From: Burkholderia aenigmatica
Lineage (GTDB): Bacteria > Pseudomonadota > Gammaproteobacteria > Burkholderiales > Burkholderiaceae
Assembly (NCBI RefSeq): GCF_902499175.1
Contig: NZ_CABVQC010000003.1
Location: forward strand, 1 to 64,000
Reading direction: 5' to 3'
DNA: 64,000 nt
Under the pieces are notes generated by a model. That model was not told the DNA's origin. It worked only from the letters and a program-made list of their open reading frames with translations, and made no database searches. The position numbers and the translations under genes are program-made. Of this stretch, positions 1 to 15,354 are shown piece by piece. The stretch's first letter is position 1. Every line of letters begins with the position of its first letter.

Positions 1-84
1 GCCGGAAATGGTCGCCGCCTGCTCGAGCGCCGCGGGCGGCGCAAACTGGCGGGTTTCGTGAAGAACCGATTCAATCGTGGACAA
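1..84 (-). CDS. acs: Acetyl-CoA synthetase, N-terminal fragment (runs off the window)
   Basis: Only the first 28 codons are visible. The translation starts STIESVLHE and continues RQFAPPAALEQAA, which resembles the N-terminus of AMP-forming acetate-CoA ligases of Burkholderia. The start is a TTG at 84, chosen because AGGAG lies about 7 bases upstream and no ATG is available in frame. The enzyme would activate acetate to acetyl-CoA with ATP, the last step of ethanol oxidation. This fits its place next to the PQQ alcohol dehydrogenase locus and the sigma-54 promoter just upstream. The assignment rests on a short stretch plus context. Confidence 0.6.
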   Translation of the reverse strand, partial: MSTIESVLHETRQFAPPAALEQAATISG

Positions 85-131
85 ACGTGTCTCCTTGCGT
101 TCTTGTGGTGCCTGACGGCGTTCGGGAAAAT

Positions 132-146
132 GCAACATGCATGCCA
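132..146 (-). promoter_or_regulatory. Sigma-54 promoter of acs
   Basis: Read on the minus strand the element is TGGCATGCATGTTGC, which matches the -24/-12 consensus TGGCAYGNNNNTTGC at every fixed position. The GG and GC are separated by exactly 10 bases. The predicted start of transcription is near 120, giving a leader of about 35 bases to the TTG start at 84. The element is of the same type as those upstream of the dehydrogenase, TonB receptor, activator and pqqA. Confidence 0.75.
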
Positions 147-274
147 GTATTGATGTTCGATGCACGCATGTGGCGACAGCCTCGGCAGCCGGGCGCGTGC
201 CGATCGATCCGTTCGAACGGGCGACGTCCCGGACGGTAGCGCGAGGCGGCGGGGCGTTCAGAAATGCAGCACGG

Positions 275-284
275 TGTGTTGCAG
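275..284 (+). promoter_or_regulatory. Possible activator half-site upstream of acs
   Basis: The stretch TGTGTTGCAG matches the half-site GGTGTTGCAN that recurs in the dyads at 5840-5892 and 11887-11928. It lies about 155 bases upstream of the predicted acs transcription start, a normal distance for a sigma-54 enhancer site. No clear second half-site is visible, so this is tentative. The rest of 147-331 shows no gene. Confidence 0.35.
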
Positions 285-331
285 TCCTGAGCAGATGGCG
301 TTCGGCTCGACAGGCGGCTGAGGCGGTCGCG

Positions 332-2239
332 TCAGGTGAGCAGCGATCGCAGTGCCGGTGCGTGCCTGAATTGCCGGATTCGTTCGAGCGCCGACACCTC
401 TATCTGACGAACGCGTTCGGCCGACAGGTTCAGTTGCCGGCCGATCTCACGCAGCGAATACTCGCTTTCGACATCGATGCCGTACCTCAGACGAAGAATC
501 CACGCTTCGCGTGCGGGCAGGCTGTCGATCAGCGTCGCCACCGCGGTACGAAGCTGGCCGGCGCTCGCGGATTCTTCCGGGGTTGGCGCATCGGGGTCGA
601 TCGTGACGTCGCATAACGTGAGGTCGTGATCGGGCGAAATGGGTGAGTCCGCGGAGACGGGCTCGCGCACGATGCTCATCAGTTCGCGTATCTTGTCGAC
701 GGGCAGCTGCATCTGTGTGGAGAGTGCGGGCGCATCGGCGACATCGCCGGTTCGTTGCCGGTGCGTTCGCGCGAGCCGCGAGAGCTTGTTGAGCGAGTCG
801 ACCGTATGCGCGGGCACGCGTATCGTGCGGCCCTGATCGGCGAGCGCATGCGTGATGGCCTGTCGGACCCACCAGGTCGCATAGGTCGAGAACTTGAAGC
901 CGCGCCGGTGATCGTAGCGATCGACGGCCTTCAACAAGCCGATATTGCCCTCCTGGATCAGATCGAGGAATGGCAGGCCGCGATCGGGATACCGTTTGGC
1001 GACCGATACGACGAGCCGAAGATTGCTCCGGAACAGCTTCGTTCTCGCGGGTTGCATCGCGCGGTCGATCCGCGACAGCCGTGCATCGAGCGCGACCGCG
1101 ATGTCGAGCGGCAGGGGCGACTGGCCGGCGAGACGGGCGAGTGCGAGACGGGCGTCGATCAGTGCCGGCGCGTGGCGGGCGAGGGCAGCGGCGCATTCCG
1201 GATGCGCGGCGATGCATTCGTGCAGCCATGCGCGCGCGTCGTCGCACGGTGCGAAGAGGTCGCGGCACGTGGATCCGGTAAGCATGCCCGACTCGACCAG
1301 GGTATCGACTAGCCGTGTTTCGATCTGGCGTGCCTGGGTGGCGCGTTCGCCGATCGCATGACCGATACGCTCGATTGCGCGGGAGGTAAAGCGGATCCTG
1401 CCGGTCAACGCGGCAGCCTCGCGAATCAGCGCGCGATAACCGGCCGAGGCGAACCCGTCGACGTTCAATGCGAGTCGCATCGCCGGTGCGAGCGAACCGG
1501 CGCGCGCGAGCGATTCGGCGACCGCATCGCGCCACGCCGGACTGTCCGGGGCGAGGCCCGTGCTGCCTTCCGGCGCCGGCGACGCCATGGTCGGATCGGG
1601 CGCCGCGTCGTTCCCGGGCGAATCGTGGGGCAGCATCGCCGGCGCTTGGGCGAGCGATTCCGCATCGTCGGCGAACCCCGTCACGTAGACCGATGCCGCG
1701 ACCTTGCCGGCGCGGACGTCGTCCGCCATCGCCGCGATGCCGGCGAGCGCAGTCGGATCCCGGCTCAACGCGTCGATGCACGCCGCCCGCCCGCGCTCCA
1801 GATGGAGCGCGAGCGCGATCTCGTCGTCGCGTTCGAGCAGCGGCGTCGCGCTCATGTCCCGCAGATAGAGCCGGACCGGATCGTTGGTTCGGCCCAGGAG
1901 CAGATCGTCGGCCGCGAGCGGCGTCGATGCGTCGGCGAGCGGTAACGTGACATCCGGCGCCTGCGCAAAATGACGGTCGAGTGTCCACGCGGTACGCGAG
2001 CCGGCATGCTCGCGTACCTCGATACCGAGCTCGCGGAGCATCGACGCGGCCGCATTCACATCCGCGTCTTCGGCGGCATCGTCGGGCAACGCGTCGGCGA
2101 TTTCGCCGTGCGTCACGTATCCGCGATCGATGCTCAGCGCGATCAGCGCATGCAGATGCGCCGCGCGTTCGGTGTCCGTGCCGCGGCGCGGTGCGCTGTC
2201 GCGTCCGCGCGCGGGGCCGGGATCAAGCAAGCTTTGCAT
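332..2239 (-). CDS. RpoD-like sigma-70 family RNA polymerase sigma factor
   Basis: The 635-residue protein has the layout of a primary-type sigma factor. A region 1.1-like segment lies near residues 30-80 ([12 protein letters not shown]), and region 1.2 starts near 120 ([10 protein letters not shown]). A long variable segment follows, then region 2 near 415-490 ([32 protein letters not shown]), then regions 3 and 4 with a C-terminal helix-turn-helix ([19 protein letters not shown]). I chose ATG 2239; a TTG at 2266 would extend it but has no ribosome site. The start overlaps the end of the HiPIP gene by 17 bases, so it is probably co-transcribed as the last gene of the alcohol dehydrogenase operon. 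Its variable middle part differs from housekeeping RpoD, so I read it as a paralogue with a restricted role, not the main sigma factor. Confidence 0.85.
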
Positions 2240-2537
2240 AGACGTTGCACCAGCCTTCGGCGGCAACCGCCTTGCCCGCGAACATCGGACACGTGCCGGA
2301 GGATTCGCCTGCGGCGGCCTTGTAGAACCGGCAGTTCGAACAGGTCTGGCCAGCCTGGTACTTCGGGAACTTGCCCGCGTCGACGGTTGTGGCCTTTGCG
2401 CGGTAGCCGAGCGTCTTCGCGGCCGCGTCGTTTTCGTCGACGGGCGGTGCGGCCGCGAATGCGCGGGTGCCGGCCGCGAGTGTGGCGCACAGGCTGGCCG
2501 CGTGGACGAGGAAGGTTCTGCGATTGGGGGAGGTCAT
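2223..2537 (-). CDS. High-potential iron-sulfur protein (HiPIP)
   Basis: The 104-residue protein carries a Tat-type signal (NRRTFLV, then a hydrophobic run ending near AFA, residue 28). The mature part has the four-cysteine HiPIP pattern C66-x2-C69...C83...C97 that binds one 4Fe-4S cluster ([21 protein letters not shown]). HiPIPs are periplasmic one-electron carriers. It lies 98 bases downstream of the fused binding protein/cytochrome c gene and overlaps the sigma factor gene, so it is likely made together with the dehydrogenase. A role in passing electrons from the cytochrome towards a terminal oxidase is inferred. Confidence 0.9.
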
Positions 2538-2635
2538 GGCGTTATCCGGCGTGAAATGAAAAGATGAAGTCCGGCCCCCGCGCCGGGCATGCTTCCCGGT
2601 GCGGGGGGCGGTCGAAACGAAAGCGGGCGGGAAAG

Positions 2636-3844
2636 TTACTTGCGCGGTCCGGCGATGAGCGGCGCCTTCGACGCAGTGGCGATATCGGCGGTCAGCTTGT
2701 GCTTGGACGCATCGTAGCCATTCGAGTAAAGCAGGAATGCCATCACATCCTCGTATTCCTGTGCCGTCATCTTGCCGGGGCGATCGGCCGGCATGTTGTT
2801 CGACAGGTACTGGAAGATGCCACCGACCGTGATGTGCGACTTGCCCTCCGGGGCGAAGGCTTCTCCGCTCAAGGCGGGGGCGGTATTGCCTTCGAGCTGG
2901 TCGCCGTGACATTTCGCGCAGGCGTCGGCATAGAGCTTCTTGCCATGCTGTACCTGTGCCTCGTCGAACGACGGTATCTCTTCGCCTTCGCTGGCTGAAA
3001 CCTTGACGAAGCCGCTCTTTGCCGGGCGCTGTTGCGCGGATGCGACCGCGCCGTCGAGAAACCGGCCGGTTGCACGCGCAGCGGTGGCCTGCGTGACGGT
3101 GTCCGGAAGCGCCCACGCGCGCGTGAGCGAGGCGAGGCGGCCATCGCCGTTCATTCGAGACAACGTTGCGTCGATGCGCTTTTGCAATGCGTCCTTGCCC
3201 GGGCCGAATGCGAACGACAGTTGCCAATTGGAGTACGGCGACGAAGTCGCCGCAACCTGGAACCGTTGGTGCGGGTGCGCATGCTCGTATGCGACGACGC
3301 TCGGATACCAGACGATTGCGCGCTGGGCACGGCCTGCGGCGACCGCACCGATCGTTTTCTCGCTCGTATTTTCGAGGTCGAAGCGGGCGTTCGGCTGCTG
3401 TGCGGCGATCAGCTGCGACGGGCTGCCGTACGTGGCCGCGATCGTTTCCTTTGCACCTGACGAGGCCTGCGCGTCGCGCAACGACACGCTGACGTATCCG
3501 GAGCGCAGATAACCCTGCGAGAACGTCATTCTGGATCCCGACGCATCGGCGATTTCCGAGCGCGGAAAACCCGCGATCACATCGCAGTCGCGTTCGAGCG
3601 ATTTCTTCAGCTCGCTGGCGGAGATGCCGTCGTCGCCGCCATCGTCGTCGACGCCACGCCTGTTGAACGTTGCGGCGATGCCTGCGGTGCGGAAGACTTC
3701 GCGCGCAACGGATCGGTCGAGCGCCGTGGTCGGGCTGCCGGGCAGCGTGCAAATGCGCACGCCGGCCGACGCGGCTGCCGGTGTCAGCGCCACGCCCACG
3801 GCGAGCAGACTGGCAACGGTAACGGAAGTGAGGCGAGTATTCAT
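2636..3844 (-). CDS. Fusion of a MoxJ/XoxJ-like periplasmic binding domain with a c-type cytochrome
   Basis: The 402-residue protein has a signal peptide (cleavage near ASA, residue 27). An N-terminal solute-binding-like domain spans about 29-250 and resembles the MoxJ/XoxJ proteins found beside methanol-type PQQ dehydrogenases. The C-terminal cytochrome c domain spans about 285-385, with heme motif C309-A-K-C312-H313 and probable axial M351 (NNMPADRPG). In most such systems the J protein and the G-type cytochrome are separate genes; here both are in one reading frame. The gene follows the dehydrogenase by 80 bases on the same strand, so it is probably the direct electron acceptor and perhaps the activating partner. 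The fusion is read directly; the function is inferred from family and neighbours. Confidence 0.85.
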   Translation of the reverse strand: MNTRLTSVTVASLLAVGVALTPAAASAGVRICTLPGSPTTALDRSVAREVFRTAGIAATFNRRGVDDDGGDDGISASELKKSLERDCDVIAGFPRSEIADASGSRMTFSQGYLRSGYVSVSLRDAQASSGAKETIAATYGSPSQLIAAQQPNARFDLENTSEKTIGAVAAGRAQRAIVWYPSVVAYEHAHPHQRFQVAATSSPYSNWQLSFAFGPGKDALQKRIDATLSRMNGDGRLASLTRAWALPDTVTQATAARATGRFLDGAVASAQQRPAKSGFVKVSASEGEEIPSFDEAQVQHGKKLYADACAKCHGDQLEGNTAPALSGEAFAPEGKSHITVGGIFQYLSNNMPADRPGKMTAQEYEDVMAFLLYSNGYDASKHKLTADIATASKAPLIAGPRK

Positions 3845-3924
3845 GGTCGTGTGTCCGGTTGAAGCGGGTAGGGCGTCGCGCCCACATCGGGCGCATGCGG
3901 GCGCGACTCGGGCCTGATGCCTGT

Positions 3925-5646
3925 TCAGTCGAGCGCGAACACGTAGAGCGTGCCGCCGCGCGGAACGTCCTTGGCGATGTCGGCCATCGGGCCACCCCAG
4001 ATCGGGTTCGCGCCGCCATAGCCGGCGAGCACGGCGACATATTCCTTGCCGTCGACCTCATACACCGACGGCTGGGAAATGATGCCGCTCGCGAGTTGCG
4101 GGCTCTCCCAGAGCACCTTGCCGGTTGCGGTGTCGAACGCATACAGGTGGCCGTCGAGCGAGCCGCTGAACGCGAGACCGCTCGCGGTGGTCGCGACGCC
4201 GCCGTTCCAGGGCTTCTTCGACCAGTGGCTCCACAGCTTCTTGCCGGTGTTGACGTCGATTGCCGTCAGTTCGCCGTAGCCCTCGCTGCCCGGTTCGGGC
4301 TTGATCTCGAAGCCTTCGCCGAGATACGGCAGGCCTTCCATGTAGCTGACCGACTTGCCGGTAAGGCTCATGCACGCATGCAGCGCTGGCACGACCGCGA
4401 TGTTGCGTTCCTGGTCGTACGAGATCGACCACCAGTTCTTGCCGCCGAGGAAGCTCGGGCACGTTTCAATCGTCGTGCCGGCCTTCGGGAACTTCGATTC
4501 GTCCTGGATCGGCTTGCCGTCGGCCGTGTAACCGGTGACTGACAGCGCCTTCACGAACGGCGTCGCATAAATCAATTTGCCGGTCGTGCGGTCGATCGCG
4601 TGGAAGAAGCCGTTTCGATCCGCGTGGATGATCGCGTCGTAGTCTTTGCCTTTGTACTTGATGTCCGCGAGGACAGCCGCGTTCACGCCGTCGTAGTCCC
4701 ACGTATCGTTGTTCGTGTACTGGTAGTGCCACTTCAGATTGCCGTTCTTCGCATCGAGCGCGAGCAGCGAGTCGGAATACAGGTTGTCGCCGGGGCGCAG
4801 GGCCGCGAGCCACGGGCCCGGGTTGCCGACACCCCAGTAAAGCGTGCGGGACGCGGCGTCGTACGTGCCGGTGAGCCAGGCCGCGCCACCGCCGTGGCTC
4901 TGCATGCCGTCGGGCCAGGTTTCCGCGCCCTTTTCTCCGGAAGCGGGGATCGTGTAGCGTTTCCAGACTTCGGAGCCGTTCTCCGGATTCAGCGCGGCGA
5001 TGTAGCCGCGAATACCGTATTCGCCGCCGGACGTGCCGACGACGATCGCACCATCGATCGCGAGCGGTGCAAGCGAGAACGCGTAGCCGAGGCCCGGCTC
5101 GAACATCTGCTTCTTCCACACGAGATTGCCGGTCTGCGCGTCGAGCGCGGCGACTTCGCCACTCAGCATTGCGACATAGACGTTCTTGCCGTACAGCGCG
5201 ACGCCGCGATTCACGACGTCGCAGCACGCGGTCTTGAACGACGCGGCGCCGAGCTTCGGCTCGTATTTCCACAGCTGCTTGCCCGTCTTGGCATCGAATG
5301 CGTAGACGTTGTCCTTCGGCGTCGTCACGAACAGATAGTCGCCGTTGACGATCGGCGTGGCCTCGAAGCCCTGCTTCAGGTCGGCGGGGAACTTGTAGGC
5401 CCACACCTGCTTGAGATCCTTCGCGTTCGACGTGTCGATCTGCTTGAGCGGCGAATGCGAGCGGCCGTCATAGGTGCGGTAGTAGGTCAGCCAGCCCGGA
5501 TCGGTGTGCGCATCGGTCAGCCGCTGGTAGGTCACGGCCGGGTAGTCCGCGGCCGCTTCCACGAGGCCGGGGTTCAGCGCGACGGCGGCCGCCACCGCGA
5601 TTCCGATCGTCGCCAGCCGGCTCGCTGAAGCCGAGAGTTTCTTCAT
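3925..5646 (-). CDS. PQQ-dependent alcohol dehydrogenase, lanthanide-type active site
   Basis: The 573-residue periplasmic quinoprotein has a signal peptide to about residue 32 (LVEAAA) and an eight-bladed propeller with repeated tryptophan-docking motifs (AxDAKTGKxLW). Adjacent cysteines C141-C142 match the disulfide next to PQQ. Probable metal ligands are E209 (SGGEYG), N275 (GVGNPG) and the catalytic D317. D319, two residues later in WDYDGVN, is the extra aspartate seen in lanthanide-dependent XoxF, ExaF and PedH enzymes; calcium-type enzymes have Ala, Ser or Thr there. It oxidises primary alcohols (probably ethanol and others) to aldehydes. The ATG at 5646 is preceded by CAGGAGA. It heads an operon with the cytochrome fusion, HiPIP and sigma factor, and is driven by a sigma-54 promoter. 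Confidence 0.93.
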   Translation of the reverse strand: MKKLSASASRLATIGIAVAAAVALNPGLVEAAADYPAVTYQRLTDAHTDPGWLTYYRTYDGRSHSPLKQIDTSNAKDLKQVWAYKFPADLKQGFEATPIVNGDYLFVTTPKDNVYAFDAKTGKQLWKYEPKLGAASFKTACCDVVNRGVALYGKNVYVAMLSGEVAALDAQTGNLVWKKQMFEPGLGYAFSLAPLAIDGAIVVGTSGGEYGIRGYIAALNPENGSEVWKRYTIPASGEKGAETWPDGMQSHGGGAAWLTGTYDAASRTLYWGVGNPGPWLAALRPGDNLYSDSLLALDAKNGNLKWHYQYTNNDTWDYDGVNAAVLADIKYKGKDYDAIIHADRNGFFHAIDRTTGKLIYATPFVKALSVTGYTADGKPIQDESKFPKAGTTIETCPSFLGGKNWWSISYDQERNIAVVPALHACMSLTGKSVSYMEGLPYLGEGFEIKPEPGSEGYGELTAIDVNTGKKLWSHWSKKPWNGGVATTASGLAFSGSLDGHLYAFDTATGKVLWESPQLASGIISQPSVYEVDGKEYVAVLAGYGGANPIWGGPMADIAKDVPRGGTLYVFALD

Positions 5647-5738
5647 GGTTGTCTCCTGAGTCATTGTGATCGCACCGCCGCGAACGGTTCGTCGCGCCGG
5701 CACGGTTGGGATTCCGGGCCGAGTGCACTGCCGGTTAC

Positions 5739-5753
5739 GCAAGTCGCATGCCA
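5739..5753 (-). promoter_or_regulatory. Sigma-54 promoter of the PQQ alcohol dehydrogenase operon
   Basis: On the minus strand the element reads TGGCATGCGACTTGC, a full match to TGGCAYGNNNNTTGC with GG and GC 10 bases apart. The predicted start of transcription is near 5727, leaving an 80-base leader before ATG 5646. The paired upstream dyads at 5840-5892 lie at about -113 to -165. Confidence 0.85.
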
Positions 5754-5839
5754 TCGCGGCGCGAAGCCGGCGCGGCGCGGCACACCGGCGTACTGCGCGT
5801 GATGCGCTGTCGGACGCGTCGCGCCATGGCATCCACGAA

Positions 5840-5892
5840 GGTGTTGCATTCAGGTACACCGCCGCACATGAAGTGTTGCCAAACATGACAGG
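5840..5892. promoter_or_regulatory. Shared upstream activator sites between dehydrogenase and TonB genes
   Basis: Two sites sit here. The first (5840-5860) has arms GGTGTTGCAT and GTACACC; the second (5872-5892) begins AGTGTTGCC and ends ATGACAGG. Their starts are 32 bases apart, about three helical turns. The half-site matches those upstream of pqqA. The pair is almost centred between two divergent sigma-54 promoters, about 100-165 bases from each predicted start, so one set of activator sites could serve both. The probable binder is the AcoR-type activator encoded at 9809-11836. The rest of 5647-6060 holds no gene. Confidence 0.65.
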
Positions 5893-5968
5893 TGGTGCAG
5901 TACGCGGGACAGGCGGGCCGTCGCGCGCTTCCGCGCCGCCGGGAATCGGGGCGCGGCGCAGGCAGCGC

Positions 5969-5983
5969 TGGCACAGTTCTCGC
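5969..5983 (+). promoter_or_regulatory. Sigma-54 promoter of the TonB receptor gene
   Basis: The element TGGCACAGTTCTCGC keeps the key GG and GC at the right 10-base spacing and the TGGCA block; it departs from consensus at the G of CACG and in the -12 TT (TC here). The predicted start is near 5995, 66 bases before ATG 6061. It faces away from the dehydrogenase promoter and shares its upstream sites. Confidence 0.65.
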
Positions 5984-6060
5984 GCGTGCGCTTCTCGACA
6001 CCACATCGCCGTGCGGTGCATTGCATGAGCCGGCGGAATACAAGCGCGGAGACAAAGGAA

Positions 6061-8406
6061 ATGATCAGGAGGCCATATGCATCCGGGTGGCGCTGTGCGA
6101 TGCGAGGCGGCCGGCGTGTACGACGCGTCGGCACGGCTCTCGGCACGCTCGCGCTGGTCGGCTTGCCGCCCGGTGGCGCGCATGCGCAGCAGCAGGCGGA
6201 CGGCGCCGTGCCACCGGCCGCGGTCATCGTGCCGCAAACGTCGGCTGTCATGTTGCCGGCCATCGTCGTCGTCGGTACGACGCCGCTGCTCGGAATCGGC
6301 ACGCCGCTGTCGGAGGTGCCGGGGAACGTGCAGACGGTGCGTGGCGCGGAACTCGACCGACAGCATCGTGCGACGCTGACCGACTACTTTGCCGCGAACC
6401 TGCAGAGCGTGACGATCTCGGAGGCGCAGGGCAACCCGTACCAGACGGACGTCAACTATCGTGGTTTCACGGCGTCGCCGCTGCTGGGCACGCCGCAGGG
6501 GATGTCGGTGTTCGTCGACGGCGTGCGCGTGAACGAGCCGTTCGGCGACGTCGTGAACTGGGACATCCTGCCCGAGCAGGCGATCGATCGGGTGCAACTG
6601 ATTCCGGGATCCAATCCTGTCTACGGGCGCAATACGCTCGGCGGCGCACTCGCGATCACGACGAAGAATGGCAGGTCGAGCCCGGGCGGAGAGGCGGAGG
6701 TGTCGGGCGGCTCGTGGGGGCGCAAGACCGTCGGCATCGAGCAGGGCGGGACGGTCGGCTCGAACCTCGACTACTATGCAACCGCTAACGTCGCAAACGA
6801 CGGCGGCTGGGCAGACCATAACGCGAGCCGCGTGCGGCAGGCGTTCGGCAAGCTGCGTTACGTCGATGCGGACACGACGCTGTCGATCGCCGGCGGCGGC
6901 GCGGACAACACGCTATACGGCACCCAGACGATTCCGCGCTCATTCCTCGGTAATCCGAAGCAGGCATACACGTATCCGGATCTGAACCGCAACAGCGCCG
7001 GGTACCTGACGCTGTCGGGCGACCGGTTTTTCGGTGAAAACGTCGAGTTGAGCGGCAACGCGTACTACCGGCACCTGAGAAACGCCAATACGAGCAGCAA
7101 CAACAATACGGACTATGGATCTGCCGGCGAGGATGGTGTAGTCGACACGGTACAAGGCAGCAATGCGCAATCGACGATCGTCACCGACAGCTATGGCGGC
7201 AGCGTGCAGCTCACGCTGCTCGGCAAGCTCGGCGGGATGGCCAACCGTCTGATCGCGGGCGGCGCGGTCGATATCGCGAACTCGAGCTACGTCGCGTCGT
7301 CGCAGGACGCGTACTTCACCGACACCCGCGCGGCGGTCGGCGTCGGCGATTTCGTCCAGCAGACCCGCGCGAAGACGCGCAACGCGAACCTCGGCGTATA
7401 CCTGAGCGACGCGTTGTCGCTGACGCCGCACTGGACGCTGACGCTGTCGGGCCGCTATGACTGGTCGAAAGCGCAGATCGGCGACGAGAGCGGCGTGCAG
7501 CCGCTGCTCGACGGCAGCCATACGTTCTCGCGCTTCAACCCTGCGGTCGGGCTCAACTGGAACCCGGTCGCGGGCTTCACCGCGTATGCGGCGTACAACG
7601 AAGGGATGCGCTCTCCGACCGCGATCGAGCTGGCCTGCGCGGACCCATCCGCCCCGTGTTCGCTGCCGAACGACTTCATCGCTGATCCGGCACTCAGGCC
7701 GGTGATCTCGAAGACGTTCGAAGCCGGCTTGCGCGGCCGCGTCGGCGCGGCGACGACCTGGAGCGCCGCGGCCTACCGCACGACACTGGCCGACGACATC
7801 CAGTTCATCAGCAGTCCGGCAAGCGCGCAGGGCTATTTCCGCAATGTCGGCGATACGCGGCGGCAGGGTCTCGAACTTGCGGGTCGCACGCGGCTTGGCC
7901 CGCTCGCTGTCGGCTTGTCGTACAGCTATGTCGATGCGACCTACCGTTCGTCGTGGACCGAACACAGCCCGGCGAATTCGGCGGCCGACGCGGACGGCAA
8001 CGTGAAGGTCAAGCCGGGCGACCGCATTCCCGGCATTCCCGCGCACACGGTGAAGCTGAGGCTCGACTACGCGGCGACGCACGCATGGGATATCGGCGCG
8101 AACGTCACGTGGCGCAGCGGCGTGTACGCGCGCGGCGACGAGAACAACCAGGACGTGAACGGCAGGATCGCGGGCTACGTGCTCGTCGATCTCGACATGC
8201 GCTACCGGATCACGAAACGGTTCGAGGTGTTCGCGAGCGTGACGAACCTGTTCGATAAACGCTACGCGAGCTTCGGCGCGCTCGGCCAGAACTTCTTCAA
8301 CGGACCGAACCACACGTTCGACGGCACCAGTCCGGTGAACGAACAGTTCGTCGGGCCGGGTGCGCCGCGCGGTGCGTGGGCCGGTGTGCGCTATGCATGG
8401 GATTGA
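6061..8406 (+). CDS. TonB-dependent outer-membrane receptor
   Basis: The product of about 781 residues is an outer-membrane importer. A signal peptide (LGTLALVGLPPGGAHAQ) is followed by a plug domain (VQTVRGAELD... GFTASPLLGTPQGMSVFVDGVRV... RVQLIPGSNPVYGRNTLGG) and a 22-stranded barrel ending in the usual aromatic-rich strand (VRYAWD). I chose ATG 6061. A well-spaced AGGAGG precedes an ATG at 6077, but that frame is not the gene; ATG 6100 would also keep the signal peptide. The gene diverges from the PQQ dehydrogenase and shares its enhancer sites. Receptors in this setting import lanthanide chelates (LutH/LanA type) or PQQ (PqqU/YncD type). Substrate is inferred from context, not from the sequence. 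Confidence 0.9.
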   Translation: MIRRPYASGWRCAMRGGRRVRRVGTALGTLALVGLPPGGAHAQQQADGAVPPAAVIVPQTSAVMLPAIVVVGTTPLLGIGTPLSEVPGNVQTVRGAELDRQHRATLTDYFAANLQSVTISEAQGNPYQTDVNYRGFTASPLLGTPQGMSVFVDGVRVNEPFGDVVNWDILPEQAIDRVQLIPGSNPVYGRNTLGGALAITTKNGRSSPGGEAEVSGGSWGRKTVGIEQGGTVGSNLDYYATANVANDGGWADHNASRVRQAFGKLRYVDADTTLSIAGGGADNTLYGTQTIPRSFLGNPKQAYTYPDLNRNSAGYLTLSGDRFFGENVELSGNAYYRHLRNANTSSNNNTDYGSAGEDGVVDTVQGSNAQSTIVTDSYGGSVQLTLLGKLGGMANRLIAGGAVDIANSSYVASSQDAYFTDTRAAVGVGDFVQQTRAKTRNANLGVYLSDALSLTPHWTLTLSGRYDWSKAQIGDESGVQPLLDGSHTFSRFNPAVGLNWNPVAGFTAYAAYNEGMRSPTAIELACADPSAPCSLPNDFIADPALRPVISKTFEAGLRGRVGAATTWSAAAYRTTLADDIQFISSPASAQGYFRNVGDTRRQGLELAGRTRLGPLAVGLSYSYVDATYRSSWTEHSPANSAADADGNVKVKPGDRIPGIPAHTVKLRLDYAATHAWDIGANVTWRSGVYARGDENNQDVNGRIAGYVLVDLDMRYRITKRFEVFASVTNLFDKRYASFGALGQNFFNGPNHTFDGTSPVNEQFVGPGAPRGAWAGVRYAWD

Positions 8407-8477
8407 GCGTGACGCGGTCGCGCCTGTTGTCGCGTCATGACGTGAGCAGGCGCCGGATTGCGCCCGGCATGAGCAGG

Positions 8478-9494
8478 TCACGTACACGGGACAGTAGCGA
8501 ACATCGCGGCCGCGGCGCGTGCGACGCTGCGTGCCAACGCCGGGTCGCCTGCCAGATGTCCGGCCTGCACGCGTTCGATCTTCACCTCGGGCACCGCACG
8601 CGCGAGGCGGGCGGCGTTGCCGGCCGGGCAAACGGGATCGTGTATCCCGTGCACGGCGAACAGCGGCACACCGGCCTGTGCCGCCCGGCGCGCGAGCGCT
8701 AATACGCTGCGCTCGCCGAGCCAGCAACCGTGCTGCAGGTAATGCGCCTGGATCCGGTATTTGTCGATCAGTCTGCCGACCGTTTTCTCCGAGCGGATCG
8801 CCCGCGCGGGCGAGCGGCGCGTCTGCACCGATGCGAGGACGGCGTCTTCGTACGCGTGCCACGCGAGCGCCACTGCGCGCTGCCGGGCTGCGCTCGCGCC
8901 GCGGCGCAGCCGCCGCGCGCAGCACGACAGCAGTCGCTCCGGCTGGCCGCCGCCGGCTGCTGAATGCATGCGCCGCCATTCGCGCGGCGCGCGCGTGCGC
9001 GACGTGATGAACAGCCGGCGGACTTCGCGCGGCGACGTCAGGAACAGGCCGCGCAGTACGACGCCGGTCACCCGCTCGGGATGCGTGCCCGCATAGGCGA
9101 GAGCGAGCGCGGCGCCCCACGATCCACCGACGACGCCCCAGCGCGCAATGCCGAGTTGATGGCGCACTGCCTCCAGATCGCCGATCAGCCGCGCGGTGCT
9201 GTTGTGACGCGTACCGCCGCGCGGTGCAGATGCCCCCGCGCCGCGCTGATCGATCAGCACGACGCGCACGCGCGTCAGGTCGAACAGTCGCAGGATGCCG
9301 GCCTGGCTGCCGCTGCCGGGCCCGCCGTGCAGCACGACGACCGGGTGGCCGTGCGCGGCGCCGGCCACGGCGAACGCGATCGATTGCCCATCGCGCCGCA
9401 GGCGGTGGGCAGCGGGCGCGGCCGGCGACGCCGGCGGGTCGGGCAAGATCCGCGTCGCGGGCGGCGGCGTGGATCGAATCGGGCGGTGTGTCAT
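8478..9494 (-). CDS. S33-family alpha/beta hydrolase, prolyl aminopeptidase-like
   Basis: The 338-residue protein has the proline iminopeptidase signatures: oxyanion-hole motif HGGPGSGS, then DQRGAG, then nucleophile elbow GGSWGAA, and a late Asp (HGIHDPVCP) and His (QAGHLAGD). This indicates an intact Ser-Asp-His triad that removes N-terminal proline or similar residues. No signal peptide is evident from ATG 9494. It is convergent with the TonB gene and divergent from the activator gene, between the dehydrogenase and pqq blocks. Because the pqq operon here has no pqqF or pqqG protease, a role in trimming the PqqA peptide is possible but not shown. A general peptidase or esterase is the alternative. 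Confidence 0.75.
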   Translation of the reverse strand: MTHRPIRSTPPPATRILPDPPASPAAPAAHRLRRDGQSIAFAVAGAAHGHPVVVLHGGPGSGSQAGILRLFDLTRVRVVLIDQRGAGASAPRGGTRHNSTARLIGDLEAVRHQLGIARWGVVGGSWGAALALAYAGTHPERVTGVVLRGLFLTSPREVRRLFITSRTRAPREWRRMHSAAGGGQPERLLSCCARRLRRGASAARQRAVALAWHAYEDAVLASVQTRRSPARAIRSEKTVGRLIDKYRIQAHYLQHGCWLGERSVLALARRAAQAGVPLFAVHGIHDPVCPAGNAARLARAVPEVKIERVQAGHLAGDPALARSVARAAAAMFATVPCT

Positions 9495-9737
9495 GTCGAT
9501 TTGGCTCGCTGGAATCGGGGCAACCGTCACGCGGCCGTGCGGGTGCCCGGGCGGTCGCAGGGGATGATCTGCGACAAAGCCAGAAACGGGCCAGCCGCGA
9601 TGATCGGGATTCGCACGGGTAGTCACGCGTCCGGAAATCGCGGTATCACGAAGCCGGCCTGTCGCGTGACCCGACACACGCGGTCGCACCCGTGGCGTGT
9701 ATTACGCATTGCTTTCAACTCGGGCGTGGCGCCGGCG

Positions 9738-9752
9738 TGGCCCGATGCTTGC
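9738..9752 (+). promoter_or_regulatory. Possible sigma-54 promoter of the activator gene
   Basis: TGGCCCGATGCTTGC matches the -24/-12 consensus except for one base (C for A in the -24 block). The predicted start is near 9764, 45 bases ahead of ATG 9809. No clear activator dyad was found upstream, so autoregulation is only suggested. The rest of 9495-9808 shows no gene. Confidence 0.55.
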
Positions 9753-9808
9753 TTGCAATGACGGCAAAGAGTCCGGCAAATGACCGGAAGGATCCCCCGG
9801 AGGAGACA

Positions 9809-11836
9809 ATGCGCGATGACATGGAGCAGGCGGCCGGATCACGGGCCGCGCATCCCGCCGGCTGGCCTGCGCCGTCGATCCAGAAGGCCCACGAGCGGTC
9901 GGAGACCTTTGGCCTGCAGGTATCGGCACAGCCCGACTACGACGTGCTGCCGAGCTCGGCGCTGGTGCTCAAGCGCGAGCAGAGCCGGGTACTGTGCGTG
10001 CATGCGATGCCGGTGATGGAAACGCTGCACGAGCAGATCGTCAACACGCAGAGCATGATCGTGTTGACCGACGCGGAAGGGCTGATCCTGCATTCGATCG
10101 GCGACGATGATTTTCTGCGCCGTGCGGAGAAGGTGGCGCTGCGCCCGGGCGCAAACTGGGCCGAGAACCGGCAGGGCACCAATGCGATCGGTACGGCACT
10201 CGCCGAATTGTGCCCGATGGTCGTCCATGGCGACCAGCACTTCCTGGCCGCGAACCGTTTCCTGACCTGTTCGAGCGTGCCGATCCTCGATCCGTACGGC
10301 GACGCGATCGGCGTGCTCGACGTGACCGGCGATCACCGCAGCTATCACCAGCACACGATGGCGCTCGCGAAGATGTCGGTGCAGATGATCGAGAATCATC
10401 TGTTTACGACGACCTTTCAGGAGACGCTGCAGGTGTCGTTCCATGGTCGCCCGGAGTTCCTCGGCACGTTGATGGAGGGGATCGTCGCGTTTACCGCCGA
10501 CGGTCGCTTCCTGTCGGCCAATCGCAGCGCGCAGTTCCAGCTCGGGATGCCGCTCGCCGCGCTGCGTGCACACACGCTGTCGTCACTGTTCGACATTACG
10601 AGCGCGCAGCTGATCGACCGCATGCGGGCGAGCACCGACCGGCACCTGACGCTGAATCTCGGCAACGGCGCGGTGGTTTGCGCGCGCGTGCACTTCCGGC
10701 GAGCGACGCTCGCCGAAGGCAGTCGGCCAACGGACGTCCACGATGCGCTTGGGCCAACCGCGCGCGCGAATGCGGTGCCTGCGCCGGCGGCGGGCACGTC
10801 GGCCGGCCTGTCGCGGCTCAACTATCTCGACACCGGCGATTCGCAGGTCGCATGCGTGATCGCGAAGGTGCGCAAGGTGATCGGCAAGGACATTCCGATC
10901 CTGATCACCGGCGAGACGGGCACTGGCAAGGAACTGCTCGCACAGGCGATCCACAACGACTCGCCGCGGCGAGACGCGCCGTTTGTCGCGGTCAACTGCG
11001 CGTCGATCCCGGAGGCGCTGATCGAGTCCGAGCTGTTCGGCTACGAGGAAGGCGCATTCACCGGCGCACGTCGCAAGGGGGCGATCGGCAAGCTGCTGCA
11101 GGCGAACGGCGGCACGTTGTTCCTCGACGAGATCGGCGACATGCCGTATCCGCTGCAGGTGCGGCTGTTGCGCGTGCTGCAGGAGCGCCTCGTCAACCCG
11201 CTCGGTTCGACGAAGACGATCGCCGTGGACATCGCGATCATCTGCGCGACGCATCGCGATTTGCGCGACATGATTGCGCAGAACCGCTTTCGCGAGGATC
11301 TCTACTACCGGCTGAATGGCCTCGTGGTGCGCCTGCCGCCGTTGCGCGACCGCACGGATATCGCGGTGGTCGTACAAAAGATGCTGCACCGGGAGGCGTT
11401 CGCGGGGCCGGGCCGGCCGCCGCTGTCCGTCGCGCCCGACGTGATGGCGCTGTTCGTGCGCTGCATGTGGCCCGGCAACTTTCGCCAGCTCGGCAACTTG
11501 TTGCGCACGGCGGCGGCAATGGTCGACGACGATGGTGAAATCCGGCGCGAGCACCTGCCGGACGACTTCTTCGACGACCTGCGCCGCGGCGACGCGCAGG
11601 CCGCCCAGGTTGCGCAGGCTGAGCACGATCCGTCTGCCGGATCGTACGTCGCGGACGCGTTCCCGCCGGCCGACGCGCGCCTGCAGGACGTTGCCGCGTC
11701 TGCGATCGCCGCCGCGCTCGCCCGTCATGGCGGAAACGTGTCCGCTGCGGCGCGCGCGCTCGGCGTCTCGCGCAACACGATCTACCGGAAGATGCCGGCA
11801 GCCGACGTGGAACGCCGCCCGTCGGACGAAAGCTGA
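9809..11836 (+). CDS. AcoR-type sigma-54-dependent transcriptional activator
   Basis: The 675-residue protein has an N-terminal GAF-type sensor (about 60-190; NWAENRQGTNAIGTA is typical of the AcoR family) and a PAS-like segment (about 210-290). The AAA+ domain carries Walker A GETGTGKE near 367, the sigma-54 contact GAFTGA near 414 and Walker B TLFLDEIGD near 435. A Fis-type helix-turn-helix lies near 638-665 (GNVSAAARALGVSRNTIYRK). The start at 9809 follows GGAGGAG. There is no receiver domain, so it probably senses a small molecule directly, perhaps an alcohol or aldehyde. Sigma-54 promoters of acs, the dehydrogenase operon, the TonB gene and pqqA surround it, making it the likely regulator of all four. 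Confidence 0.92.
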   Translation: MRDDMEQAAGSRAAHPAGWPAPSIQKAHERSETFGLQVSAQPDYDVLPSSALVLKREQSRVLCVHAMPVMETLHEQIVNTQSMIVLTDAEGLILHSIGDDDFLRRAEKVALRPGANWAENRQGTNAIGTALAELCPMVVHGDQHFLAANRFLTCSSVPILDPYGDAIGVLDVTGDHRSYHQHTMALAKMSVQMIENHLFTTTFQETLQVSFHGRPEFLGTLMEGIVAFTADGRFLSANRSAQFQLGMPLAALRAHTLSSLFDITSAQLIDRMRASTDRHLTLNLGNGAVVCARVHFRRATLAEGSRPTDVHDALGPTARANAVPAPAAGTSAGLSRLNYLDTGDSQVACVIAKVRKVIGKDIPILITGETGTGKELLAQAIHNDSPRRDAPFVAVNCASIPEALIESELFGYEEGAFTGARRKGAIGKLLQANGGTLFLDEIGDMPYPLQVRLLRVLQERLVNPLGSTKTIAVDIAIICATHRDLRDMIAQNRFREDLYYRLNGLVVRLPPLRDRTDIAVVVQKMLHREAFAGPGRPPLSVAPDVMALFVRCMWPGNFRQLGNLLRTAAAMVDDDGEIRREHLPDDFFDDLRRGDAQAAQVAQAEHDPSAGSYVADAFPPADARLQDVAASAIAAALARHGGNVSAAARALGVSRNTIYRKMPAADVERRPSDES

Positions 11837-11886
11837 CGCGCAGGACGCGGGATCGCGGCCTGCGCACAGCGCGCGCTGTCACAGCC

Positions 11887-11928
11887 GGTGTGTCAAGTTG
11901 CAACACCGGTGTTCAACGATTCAACACC
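11887..11928. promoter_or_regulatory. Tandem activator dyads upstream of the pqq operon
   Basis: Two 21-base dyads lie end to end. The first (11887-11907) has arms GGTGT and TTGCAACACC; the second (11908-11928) has arms GGTGTTCAA and TTCAACACC. Their period of 21 bases is two helical turns, placing both on one face of the helix. They lie about 160-205 bases upstream of the predicted pqqA start. The arms match the half-sites at 5840-5892. Confidence 0.65.
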
Positions 11929-12064
11929 TGTTGCTCCCCCCGCGCATCCCGCAGCCGGGGCGGCCGCCCCTATCCGTATGAATCGTGTCGGCTATTCGTA
12001 AGGATTTCATCCCGATGCCCGAATGACGGCCGGTTGCCGCCGCCGGGCGGCCAACGTACGGTTT

Positions 12065-12080
12065 CGGCACGCTCCTTGCT
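12065..12080 (+). promoter_or_regulatory. Sigma-54 promoter of pqqABCDE
   Basis: CGGCACGCTCCTTGCT matches the consensus in the -24 block (GGCACG) and the -12 block (TTGCT) with the invariant GG and GC 10 bases apart; only the first T is replaced by C. The predicted start is near 12091, about 67 bases ahead of pqqA. Confidence 0.8.
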
Positions 12081-12157
12081 GAAGAGGAACCGACCGCCCG
12101 ATTTCCGCGGTTGTTCGACTCACCAGGCAACTCATCAACTCAATCAGGAGACACATC

Positions 12158-12232
12158 ATGCAGTGGACGACACCGACCTACACCGACCTGCGCTTCGGCT
12201 TCGAAATCACGATGTACATCGCCAACCGCTGA
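12158..12232 (+). CDS. pqqA: PQQ precursor peptide PqqA
   Basis: This 24-residue peptide ([16 protein letters not shown], then ITMYIANR) is the ribosomal precursor of pyrroloquinoline quinone. The conserved Glu16 and Tyr20, in the E-x3-Y motif, are the two residues joined to form the cofactor. AGGAG lies 8 bases before the ATG. It is too short for standard gene calling but is placed exactly before pqqB, as in other pqq operons. PqqD would bind it and PqqE would crosslink Glu to Tyr. Confidence 0.97.
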
Positions 12233-12292
12233 TCGCCGCGCGTGCCGCCCGTTTCGCCGTGTCGGCGCGGGCGGCCTCGGGAGCTGACGCCC

Positions 12293-13216
12293 ATGAAGAT
12301 CAAGATACTCGGCTCGGGAGCCGGCGGCGGCCTGCCGCAATGGAACTGCAATTGCGCGAACTGTCGCCGTGCGCGCAGCGGAAGCGGCCACGTGCTGCCG
12401 CGCACGCAGTCGTCGATCGCGGTCAGCGACGACGGCATCGACTGGATCCTCGTCAATGCGTCACCCGACATTCTTTCCCAGTTGCGCGCGGATCCGGACC
12501 TGCAACCGGCGCGCGCGATCCGCGACAGCGGCATCGCTGCCGTCGTGCTGTGCGACGCGCAGATCGATCACGTGACGGGCCTGCTGATGCTGCGCGAGCG
12601 ATCGACGCCGCTGCCGCTTTACGCGAGCGCACCCGTGCTCGACGACTTGTCGACCGGCTTGCCGCTCGTGCCGCTGCTGGGTCATTACTGCGGCGTCGCC
12701 GCTCACACGATCACGCTCGGCGAGCCGTTCGAGGTGCCGGCGGCGCGCGGGATCCGTTTCACCGCGATTCCCGTCGACAGCAAGGCGCCGCCTTATTCGC
12801 CGCGGCGCGCGTCGGCCGCGCCCGGGGACAACGTCGCGCTGTCGATCGAAGATGTCGCGAGCGGCCGCCGCGCGTTCTATGCGCCAGGGCTCGCGGCAGT
12901 CAACGACGACGTACGTGCGGCCATGGACGGCGCCGATCTCGTGCTGGTGGACGGCACGTTCTGGACCGGGACCGAAATGATCGATCTCGGCCTGTCGGGC
13001 AAGCACGCGGCCGACATGGGGCATCTCGCGCAGTGTGCGGAACACGGGCGGCCCGGCATGATCGATTGGCTCGACACGCTGCCCGCACGTACGCGCAAGG
13101 TGCTCACGCACATCAACAACACGAACCCGATTCTCGATCCGCATTCCGTCGAGCACGCGCTCCTGCGCGCGCACGGCATTGACGTCGCACACGACGGAAT
13201 GCAATTCCAGGTCTGA
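12293..13216 (+). CDS. pqqB: PQQ biosynthesis protein PqqB
   Basis: The 307-residue protein is a metallo-beta-lactamase-fold enzyme. It begins [19 protein letters not shown] and carries the cysteine knot CNCANC that binds structural zinc, plus [10 protein letters not shown] where related hydrolases have the metal motif. PqqB is thought to hydroxylate the crosslinked Glu-Tyr intermediate. ATG 12293 is 60 bases after pqqA; an upstream in-frame ATG at 12242 gives an atypical N-terminus. It is separated from pqqC by two bases, so translation is probably coupled. Confidence 0.96.
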
Positions 13217-13218
13217 CG

Positions 13219-13938
13219 ATGAACGCACCGATTCCCGCTACGGCGTTGCACGCAACGCCCTGGATCGCGACCGAATTCGAGGCGCGCCTGCGTGCGCTCG
13301 AATCGCGCTATCACATCCATCATCCGTTCAACCGACGGCTCAACAGTGGCGCCTGTTCGCCCGCGCAGATCCGCGGCTGGGTGGCAAACCGCTTCTACTA
13401 CCAGATCAACATTCCGCTCAAGGATGCGGCGATCCTGTCGAACTGCCCCGACCGTGACACGCGTCGCCGCTGGATTCAGCGGCTGGTCGATCACGACGGG
13501 CAGGGCGACAACGAAGGCGGCATCGAGGCATGGGTACGGCTCGGCGAGGCATGCGGTCTCGCGCGCGCCGAACTGTGGTCGCTCGAACACGTGTTGCCCG
13601 GCGTGCGTTTCGCGGTGGACGCATACGTGAACTTCGCACGGCGCGCGCCATGGCAGGAAGCCGTGTGCTCGTCGCTGACCGAGATGTTCGCGCCGCAAAT
13701 CCATCTCGACCGCCTCGCGGGCTGGCCGTCGCATTACCCGTGGATAGAGCCGGCCGGGCTGCATTACTTCCGCAGCCGCGTCCCGCTCGCGCAGCGCGAC
13801 GTCGAGCATGGTCTCGCCGTGACGCTGCAGCATTTCACGACACCGGATGCGCAGCAGCGCGCGCTCGGCATTCTGCAATTCAAGCTCGACATTCTGTGGT
13901 CGATGCTCGACGCCGTCGAAAAGGCCTACCCCCTATGA
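13219..13938 (+). CDS. pqqC: Pyrroloquinoline-quinone synthase PqqC
   Basis: The 239-residue cofactor-free oxidase carries out the final ring closure and eight-electron oxidation to PQQ. Family hallmarks are visible: [14 protein letters not shown] near the N-terminus, [13 protein letters not shown], and the C-terminal segment [16 protein letters not shown]. Its length matches stand-alone PqqC, so it is not the PqqCD fusion seen in some methylotrophs. Its stop codon overlaps the pqqD start. Confidence 0.97.
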
Positions 13939-14216
13939 ACGCGATCGAAGCCGCTAGCGGCGTACCGCTGCGCCCCTGTCTCAGTGGCATGTACCGCCTG
14001 CAATGGGAGGCGGCCCAGGATGCGTACGTGCTCCTCTATCCGGAGGGAATGGTCAAGCTCAACCCGAGTGCGGGCGAGATTCTCGCGCGCTGCGACGGCA
14101 CGCGCGAACTGGACGACATCATTGGCGAACTCGAGCGCCTGTTCCGCCAATCGGACCTCGCGACCGACGTCTACCGGTTCCTCGATCATGCGCGACTGCG
14201 CGGCTGGCTCGACTGA
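13935..14216 (+). CDS. pqqD: PqqA-binding chaperone PqqD
   Basis: The 93-residue protein has the RRE fold of peptide chaperones: [22 protein letters not shown], then a helical C-terminal half. It presents PqqA to the radical-SAM enzyme PqqE. The ATG overlaps the pqqC stop (ATGA) and the gene ends one base before pqqE, showing tight coupling. Confidence 0.95.
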
Positions 14217-14217
14217 T

Positions 14218-15354
14218 ATGGTTCCCGACACTTCCCGTCCGTCCGCGCCGCTGTGGCTGCTCGCGGAACTCACGTACCGTTGCCCGCTGCACTGCGCGTT
14301 CTGCTACAACCCCGTCGACTTCGCGGCGCACGGCGCGGAACTCGATACCGATGCGTGGCGCGCGGTCATCAACGATGCGCGCGCGCTCGGCGCCGCGCAG
14401 ATCGGCTTCTCGGGCGGCGAACCGCTGCAACGCGGCGACCTCGAGACGCTCGTCGCGCATGCGCGCGGGCTGGGCTTCTATACGAACCTGATCACGTCGG
14501 GCATCGGGCTGAACATTGCACGCATCGAGCGGCTCAAGGCGGCCGGGCTCGATCACATCCAGCTGTCGCTGCAGGATTCGACGCGCGAACTGAACGATTT
14601 CCTGAGCAGTACCCGCACGTTCGAGCTGAAGCGCAGCGTTGCGCGGCTGATCAAGGCGCACGGCTACCCGATGGTGCTCAACTGCGTGCTGCATCGCTAC
14701 AACCTGCCGCACGTGGGACAGATCATCGAGATGGCGCTCGACCTGGGCGCCGATTACCTGGAGCTCGCGAACACGCAGTACTACGGCTGGGCGATGCTGA
14801 ACCGAGACCAGTTGATGCCGACCGTCGAGCAGGTGCGCGAGGCCGAGGAAACGGTCAATCGCTATCGCAAGCTGGTGGGCGAGCGCTGCAAGATCCTGTT
14901 CGTCGTGCCCGACTATTTCGAGCGGCGCCCGAAGGCATGCATGAATGGCTGGGGCTCGGTGTTCCTGGGCGTTGCGCCGGACGGCACCGCGCTGCCGTGT
15001 CATGCCGCGCGGTCGCTGCCCGGACTCGCACTGCCGAACGTGCGCGACCGGTCGCTGCGGGAAATCTGGTACGACAGCGACGCATTCAACGCGTTTCGCG
15101 GCGACGACTGGATGCGCGAGCCGTGCCGCACATGCGACGAACGGCATGCGGATCACGGCGGTTGCCGGTGCCAGGCCTATCTGCTGGCCGGCGATCCGAA
15201 GGAGGCCGATCCGGTGTGCGAGAAGTCCCCGCACCACGGCCAGGTCGAGCAGACCGTGCAATTCGCGCGACGTCGCGAGCCGCGCGACGAACAGCCGATG
15301 GTTTTTCGCAGCCGGGAGAATTCGCTTGCGCGATGCGGGACAGCGAGCGACTGA
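14218..15354 (+). CDS. pqqE: Radical-SAM PqqA peptide cyclase PqqE
   Basis: The 378-residue enzyme joins Glu16 and Tyr20 of PqqA. The radical-SAM cluster motif is C22-x3-C26-x2-C29 (CPLHCAFC), the SAM-binding GGEP is present (IGFSGGEPLQ), and the C-terminal SPASM domain supplies further Fe-S ligands (PCHAARS, EPCRTCDERHADHGGCRCQ). It is the last recognisable gene of the operon. No pqqF-type protease follows it; the next 420 bases have no clear gene. Confidence 0.97.
   Translation: MVPDTSRPSAPLWLLAELTYRCPLHCAFCYNPVDFAAHGAELDTDAWRAVINDARALGAAQIGFSGGEPLQRGDLETLVAHARGLGFYTNLITSGIGLNIARIERLKAAGLDHIQLSLQDSTRELNDFLSSTRTFELKRSVARLIKAHGYPMVLNCVLHRYNLPHVGQIIEMALDLGADYLELANTQYYGWAMLNRDQLMPTVEQVREAEETVNRYRKLVGERCKILFVVPDYFERRPKACMNGWGSVFLGVAPDGTALPCHAARSLPGLALPNVRDRSLREIWYDSDAFNAFRGDDWMREPCRTCDERHADHGGCRCQAYLLAGDPKEADPVCEKSPHHGQVEQTVQFARRREPRDEQPMVFRSRENSLARCGTASD

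Follow-up and report, generated by a model that had tools for sequence, protein, structure and literature searches.

Sigma-54-dependent activators of alcohol genes have been described in several bacteria. BmoR of Thauera butanivorans is an alcohol-responsive sigma-54 activator that acts at Pbmo (PMC8899819, PMC8784404), and AdhR and AorR of Clostridiales, as well as AcoR, are sigma-54 activators for alcohol or acetoin genes (PMC6615313). In the ped cluster of Pseudomonas, alcohol dehydrogenases dependent on pyrroloquinoline quinone (PQQ) are co-regulated with the pqq operon (PMC12997753, PMC6115532), while a PQQ region of Burkholderiaceae insect symbionts, many genes of which are induced in symbiosis, holds a sigma-54-dependent Fis family regulator alongside PQQ genes and the gene of a PQQ alcohol dehydrogenase (PMC9088363). 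Here, we analyze the first 64 kb of contig C3 (NZ_CABVQC010000003.1) from the 8.9-Mb genome of Burkholderia aenigmatica, a stretch referred to below as the window. An activator gene at 9809-11836 likely runs a local sigma-54 regulon that covers the exaA operon (PQQ alcohol dehydrogenase), tonB (TonB-dependent receptor), pqqABCDE, and acs (acetate--CoA ligase).

The following comparisons draw on parts of the cited papers. Like the locus in the window, the BmoR system combines a sigma-54 promoter, with an activator site ~193 bp upstream, and a regulator made of N-terminal sensor, central sigma-54, and C-terminal DNA-binding domains, and it serves alcohol metabolism. It differs in that BmoR is described for one alkane monooxygenase operon and the promoter of its gene is called constitutive, whereas several units, pqq and acs included, are concerned here and a sigma-54 site precedes the regulator gene itself (PMC8899819, PMC8784404). 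AgmR and two-component systems (PedS2/PedR2) act in the ped cluster, in contrast to the one-component sigma-54 activator of the window (PMC12997753, PMC6115532). The enzymes controlled by AdhR, AorR, and AcoR are fermentative or acetoin enzymes, without PQQ in PMC6615313. The regulator of the insect-symbiont region is likened to ours by its description, and the main text of PMC9088363 contains neither “promoter” nor “regulon.” Finally, PqqU is a TonB-dependent receptor near PQQ genes (PMC12124388), the signature residues of which are absent from the receptor encoded here. Among the matches listed, the parts of the open-access literature covered held nothing on a sigma-54 regulon of a PQQ alcohol dehydrogenase, pqq, and acs in Burkholderia. 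The ethanol dehydrogenases of Azoarcus are said to be the subject of another study, which was not among the matches listed.

Predicted sigma-54 promoters at five units

A preliminary description of this DNA had placed GG-N10-GC elements of the -24/-12 type before acs, exaA, tonB, the activator gene, and pqqA, and all five are present where it put them (Table 1). The genome carries two copies of rpoN, the gene for sigma-54. The bare number of such elements is not above chance: at the score of the weakest of the five, the window has 12, compared to 9.3 on average over 20 dinucleotide shuffles. Because of this chance-level number, conservation across loci was tested. The sample consisted of the window and 80 loci retrieved with the activator as the query (nearest homologues, Burkholderia puraquae at 98% and B. 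cenocepacia at 95% identity), and all counts include the window. Among the homologous loci are those of Paraburkholderia xenovorans LB400 (L048) and Paraburkholderia sacchari (L031). Upstream regions were anchored by tblastn; the loci are related and thus not independent trials. Two rpoN loci (L001 and L002) and loci whose upstream stretch is cut by a contig end were left out of the counts. Promoter and dyad scores were ad hoc and consensus-based, and the promoter cut-off was the score of the weakest window site.

Within 170 nt of the start codon, a -24/-12 element was present in 69/69 loci for pqqA, 58/68 for exaA, 67/81 for the activator gene, 19/27 for tonB, and all eight loci that hold the acs start. 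Control upstream regions together had 4/271 (pqqB 0/43, pqqC 0/44, pqqE 0/45, the high-potential iron-sulfur protein [HiPIP] gene 0/37, the alpha/beta hydrolase gene abh 0/25, sbp-cyt 2/67, and the sigma-70 factor gene 2/10), and shuffles had 0.4 to 2.5%. At 260 nt, exaA rises to 65/68 owing to longer leaders in some loci, and pqqB to 43/43 solely from the pqqA promoter falling inside the stretch. Where present, the activator element reads mostly TGGC[C/G]C[G/A]-N4-TTGC and usually sits between about -65 and -98. The flanks between the elements have diverged in the alignments across loci. It is placement and conservation, not number, that make the case for the five predicted promoters.

In 40 further regions, picked by hand for distance and genus, all 27 with a scored pqqA have a sigma-54 site before it, and 10 of those 27 (L207-L213 and L217-L219; other genera, 56 to 58% activator identity) also have one before the activator gene. 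In L214, from another family (55% activator identity), a poorer site precedes the activator gene at -215.

Tandem 17-bp dyads upstream of the promoters

The repeats that had been noticed upstream of four of these units, in tandem at exaA/tonB and pqqA, were borne out as 17-bp dyads of about TGTnnC-N5-GnAACA, which in the window begin 95 to 176 bp upstream of the promoters (start to start). Tandem dyads are 20 to 22 bp apart before pqqA in 55 of the 64 loci with two of them, and 30 to 33 bp apart before exaA in 57/66. With a dyad called at a score of ≥10.5 within 300 nt, calls were made for pqqA in 64/69 loci, exaA in 56/68, tonB in 19/27, the activator gene in 15/81, and acs in 2/8; the controls gave 6/43 for pqqB, 8/67 for sbp-cyt, 3/25 for abh, 1/44 for pqqC, 0/45 for pqqE, 0/37 for the HiPIP gene, and 0/10 for the sigma-70 factor gene, and shuffles 0.4 to 3.3%. 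The exaA pair is common to tonB, and in L029 and L033-L036 to the activator gene. Over distinct dyad-to-promoter distances, no helical period stood out.

The acs dyad ends in TGCAACA in all eight loci and is identical in five of them, the window included; the form TGTTGA...TGCAACA occurs in L014, L020, and, farther upstream, L007. The candidate dyad before the activator gene is not widely conserved, with altered copies at the same cut-off in L004 and L005 only. That the activator controls its own gene, as had been proposed, is a guess, its sigma-54 promoter being conserved without a widely conserved dyad beside it; the activator may drive this promoter.

Eight of the 15 activator dyads come from a separate clade (L060-L062, L065, L066, L072, L074, and L079; 71 to 74% identity) in which no pqq or exaA was found nearby, and which has a dyad close to TGTTCCGTTTCGGAACA 160 to 192 nt upstream.

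Confinement of the composite element to one locus

The dyad pattern TGTNNCN5GNAACA has 19 matches at 16 places of the genome, two of these places being at this locus. A composite pattern of dyad and promoter, TGY-N9-CAACA-N70..162-GGCAY-N5-TTGC, gave five matches in 8.9 Mb, all of them in the window: two dyads at exaA, one at acs, and two at pqqA (reversed control, 0). This composite pattern was drawn from these very sites, so that recovery of the five is built in and the informative outcome is that it matched nowhere else. Neither the tonB nor the activator promoter conforms to it, and any further members with such variants would escape it. At the stringency used, the regulon does not extend beyond this locus. 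The preliminary description had gone further, in that everything needed for the pathway would be switched together; the composite pattern finds no aldehyde dehydrogenase gene nor any other target in the genome.

The other 14 dyad places, 10 of which were also read in context, were scanned for a -24/-12 partner; 12 have none by the rule used, and two have poor ones (L083, score 14.6 at 297 bp, and L093, 15.6 beside a weak dyad). Strict -24/-12 sites number 21 genome-wide (reversed control, 8). Apart from the acs site, those of L100, L107, L110, and L112 have a weak dyad each (9.6 to 10.5), which was taken as chance. In L107 (G000:C8:31191), a perfect-scoring element (17.0) precedes an open reading frame with a lipoprotein-like start, with the weak dyad (9.7) 141 bp upstream.

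The local activator as candidate reader of the dyads

The activator is made of GAF (PF01590), sigma-54 AAA+ (PF00158, 229 bits), and Fis-type helix-turn-helix (PF02954) domains, with GAFTGA read in the translation. Among distinct activators, the recognition helix reads SRNT in 98, SRAT in 8, SRTT in 4, and SRST in 1, counted once duplicates over the first 300 residues and sequences lacking SRxTxYR had been removed. SRAT-type dyads occur in Trinickia. With SRAT, base 4 is C in 23/32 pqqA and 12/18 exaA half-sites; with SRNT, it is C in 4/104 and 55/178, respectively. As the dyads and one recognition-helix residue changed together in one clade, the local activator is the likely dyad reader; the helix change suggests that it reads both the exaA and the pqqA dyads, and ties the two to it better than neighborhood alone. 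On the activator tree, this amounts to a single change observed at both promoters rather than to many. A class-wide search (2/369 genomes at E≤1e-190, our genome being one of the two) and a family-wide search (at least 201 of 398 genomes at E≤1e-195, among the matches listed), followed by the 40 regions, yielded no second origin, since the SRAT activators in these regions (L182-L184 and L186-L190, outside the tree) are all from one genus.

In the proposed mechanism, the GAF-AAA-Fis activator, probably as dimers, would bind the tandem dyads, spaced about two helical turns apart at pqqA or three at exaA/tonB, and an alcohol or its product may act as a small-molecule signal on the GAF domain. Together with RNA polymerase-sigma-54, the activator would turn on the exaA operon, pqqABCDE, and acs, and less surely the divergent TonB receptor gene. 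The outcome would be alcohol oxidation in the periplasm, with cofactor synthesis matched to need and activation of the resulting acetate.

The activator lacks the gene setting of AcoR: its neighbors are PQQ and alcohol genes rather than acetoin dehydrogenase, and only the GAF-AAA-Fis layout is shared. A paralogue elsewhere in the genome, at 41% identity, is what we take to be the AcoR-like protein. A different paralogue, which has SRAT and lies in L122, has GTCTC/GAGAC repeats at a different spacing before its target, noted by eye and offered as a hint only.

One regulon or several

The idea of one enhancer-binding protein for the whole pathway is thus retained in its core, by sigma-54 promoters at five units, dyads shared by four, a GAF-AAA-Fis activator among them, and the parallel change of dyad and helix; the extent first given to it was too wide. 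The sites, the gene content, their conservation, and their confinement to the locus at the tested stringency are plain at the sequence level. Several observations weigh against a single local regulon. On its own, the dyad occurs often in the genome (19 matches compared to 10 for the reversed pattern), and a 52% identical paralogue of the activator is preceded by one too. Dyads at acs reach the cut-off in only two of eight loci, and the sigma-54 site is absent from 14/81 loci at the activator gene and from 8/27 at tonB. The joint change of helix and dyad has a single origin on a tree of 81 activators (seven with SRAT) and is weaker at exaA, and four SRTT activators have mixed sites. In all 14 distant loci (L202-L204, L207-L214, and L217-L219; 55 to 64% activator identity), no such dyad lies within 420 nt of pqqA, where the sigma-54 site is present, and in L202-L204 the activator gene lacks such a site; the dyad binding rule is therefore not general. 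BmoR kept its response after removal of its putative site (PMC8899819, as described in part of that paper), so a dyad need not be essential. Finally, no PQQ or alcohol gene appeared in the main text of a paper on sigma-54 and of one on NtrC, both searched by term.

Could the promoters be real but read by several enhancer-binding proteins, the local one at exaA and pqqA and others (such as the 52% paralogue or a regulator of nitrogen or carbon metabolism) at acs, tonB, or the activator gene? The genome offers candidates, with 31 stretches matching the activator query and dyad TGTTCCGCATTGCAACA upstream of the 52% paralogue, and the sites are uneven: the acs dyad is imperfect, and the activator gene has its sigma-54 site without a widely conserved dyad. 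Yet the dyad and promoter of acs follow the same layout, and acs is the only further unit found by the composite pattern, which was drawn to include it; in the SRAT clade, moreover, the dyads of exaA and pqqA changed in parallel. We consider such a division somewhat unlikely. The paralogue itself (L150 4408-6390; G000:C3:218410-220269; L086/L150) shows, for its dyad, no -24/-12 element of score ≥15 in the 12 kb covered.

A narrower set, in which only exaA, pqqA, and acs are sigma-54 units and the tonB and activator elements are look-alikes of genes on sigma-70 promoters, appears quite unlikely. It would account for the -12 of tonB being TCGC and the lack of that site in eight of 27 loci, and bare sites of such a score are equally common in shuffled DNA; on the other hand, 19/27 loci retain the tonB element, and the activator element recurs in 67/81, mostly at -65 to -98, with a related one in 10 loci at 56 to 58% identity. 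That an unrelated repressor or a nucleoid protein uses the dyads as operators, with the -24/-12 elements arising by chance, is exceedingly improbable, given promoters conserved relative to controls and dyads that changed with the helix of the adjacent activator. A local regulon run by the activator at 9809-11836 remains the likely reading.

Gene content of the locus

From left to right, the locus comprises the acs 5' end, the sigma-70 factor gene, the HiPIP gene, sbp-cyt, exaA, tonB, abh, the activator gene, and pqqA-E (Table 1). The four genes from exaA to the sigma-70 factor gene are all on the minus strand in operon order, and the TonB receptor gene is divergent.

Table 1. Coordinates of genes, predicted promoters, and dyads at the left end of the window
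Feature	Position	Strand	Remarks
acs 5' end, acetate--CoA ligase	1..84	-	TTG start; 28 residues readable, contig begins here
acs -24/-12 element TGGCATGCATGTTGCA	131..146 (146-131)	-	
Weak second acs dyad TGCTGCATTTCTGAACG	255..271	-	22 bp from first; conserved block, by eye; below scoring cut-off
acs dyad TGCTCAGGACTGCAACA	277..293	-	Score only 9.5 in window
RpoD-like sigma-70 factor	332..2239	-	Last exaA operon gene, overlaps HiPIP gene; Pfam regions 1.1, 1.2, 2, 3, 4
HiPIP	2223..2537	-	PF01355, 79.7 bits
sbp-cyt, periplasmic binding-protein-like domain fused to cytochrome c	2636..3844	-	Cytochrome c domain 296-371
exaA, PQQ-dependent alcohol dehydrogenase, predicted lanthanide type (WDYDG)	3925..5646	-	TIGR03075, 565 bits (cut-off 480)
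exaA operon -24/-12 element TGGCATGCGACTTGCG	5738..5753	-	
Dyad 1 between exaA and tonB	5842..5858	.	TGTACCTGAATGCAACA on minus
Dyad 2 between exaA and tonB	5874..5890	.	TGTCATGTTTGGCAACA on minus
tonB -24/-12 element TGGCACAGTTCTCGCG	5969..5984	+	Weakest of the five; -12 = TCGC
TonB-dependent receptor	6061..8406	+	Start codon uncertain; PF00593, PF07715
abh, alpha/beta hydrolase	8478..9497	-	Prolyl aminopeptidase-like
Candidate dyad before activator gene TGTCGCGTGACCCGACA	9660..9676	+	Other form; score 11.0 in window
Activator gene -24/-12 element TGGCCCGATGCTTGCT	9738..9753	+	
Activator: GAF, sigma-54 AAA+ with GAFTGA loop, Fis-type helix-turn-helix	9809..11836	+	Helix SRNTIYRK
pqqA dyad 1 TGTGTCAAGTTGCAACA	11889..11905	+	
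pqqA dyad 2 TGTTCAACGATTCAACA	11910..11926	+	21 bp from dyad 1
pqqA -24/-12 element CGGCACGCTCCTTGCT	12065..12080	+	
pqqA, 24-residue PQQ precursor	12158..12232	+	TIGR02107, 46.2 bits (cut-off 20)
pqqB	12293-13216	+	Conserved place and frame in relatives
pqqC	13219-13938	+	PF03070
pqqD, pqqE (to 15354)	12293..15354 region	+	PqqE radical SAM/SPASM by Pfam; pqqD by name only

The closest solved chains to ExaA are 6zcw and 6zcv, the former of which we take to be PedH. WDYDG of ExaA, present in 68/68 loci, aligns with WDFDG of 6zcw and with WDFSG of 1flg (Asp versus Ser). A second Asp two residues after the catalytic Asp marks lanthanide use in PQQ alcohol dehydrogenases. ExaA is thus predicted to be probably lanthanide dependent, of the PedH/ExaF type. 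With exaA as the query, it is the sole strong family match in the genome, the other being a 25% identical stretch at E 1e-4. Next to it, sbp-cyt encodes more than 350 residues with CxxCH in 67/67 loci, and its N-terminal part has a weak MoxJ-type match, far below cut-off.

The sigma-70 factor scores 457 bits with the NCBIfam RpoD model, below the equivalog cut-off of 555, and shares 35% identity with two further long RpoD-like genes in the genome. Its gene follows sbp-cyt in 13 loci; 44 others lack it despite ≥3 kb of available sequence, and 10 were too short. Expression of this sigma-70 factor in the window would be under sigma-54 control. The preliminary description was silent on this gene and on the lanthanide type of the dehydrogenase.

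At the place of the truncated acs, a relative (G745, L223:2344-4323) has a full-length gene that scores 971.6 bits with TIGR02188 AcsA (cut-off 724.95); its activator is 98% identical, and its acs 5' end is of the same kind as that in the window. The product of pqqA is of the usual 24-residue size. In PMC9088363, pqqA is called a fragment of ~100 bp in the part of the text concerned; here it is a precursor above its family cut-off.

In E. coli numbering, PqqU is marked by an aromatic residue at position 99 and arginines at 304 and 365 (PMC12124388, in part). We rejected the receptor of the window as PqqU, with 118.7 bits compared to the NCBIfam cut-off of 1200 and the signature residues in 0/25 aligned receptors, a check made by global alignment of distant receptors in which single columns could be shifted. 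The import step of the pathway as first described is not supported, and the tonB promoter is the weakest and least conserved of the five. The cargo of the receptor is perhaps a metal chelate.

Two further features accompany the activator gene. A TT(A/G)C...CTTTC block at about 9700-9720 (+), upstream of its -24/-12 element, is conserved in the Burkholderia alignment. Its leader (9770-9806, +) carries a TCCGG...CCGGA repeat and a further CCGGA that runs into the ribosome site GGAGGAG, an arrangement kept in the same alignment; translational control is possible. In the rest of the window, no C1 or methylotrophy genes were seen among the longest open reading frames, viewed by eye without a family scan.

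Implications

The arrangement is new in detail and works like known sigma-54 switches. A bolder and rather doubtful reading is a sigma cascade, in which one activator would switch on rare-earth PQQ oxidation, pqq, acs, and itself, the RpoD-like factor of the exaA operon would start a second program, and Asn or Ala in SR-x-T would set base 4 of the dyad. If so, this residue of the recognition helix would be a natural specificity switch. Two easy assumptions about the locus are corrected: the dehydrogenase appears to depend on rare earths, and the residues of the nearby receptor are not those of a PqqU. With a probable reader, the sites concerned, and a natural pairing of helix and site named, the locus may be of use for studying DNA recognition by this class of activators. 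It provides a concrete and testable wiring of PQQ-dependent alcohol oxidation in Burkholderia sensu lato, unlike that described for the ped cluster of Pseudomonas.

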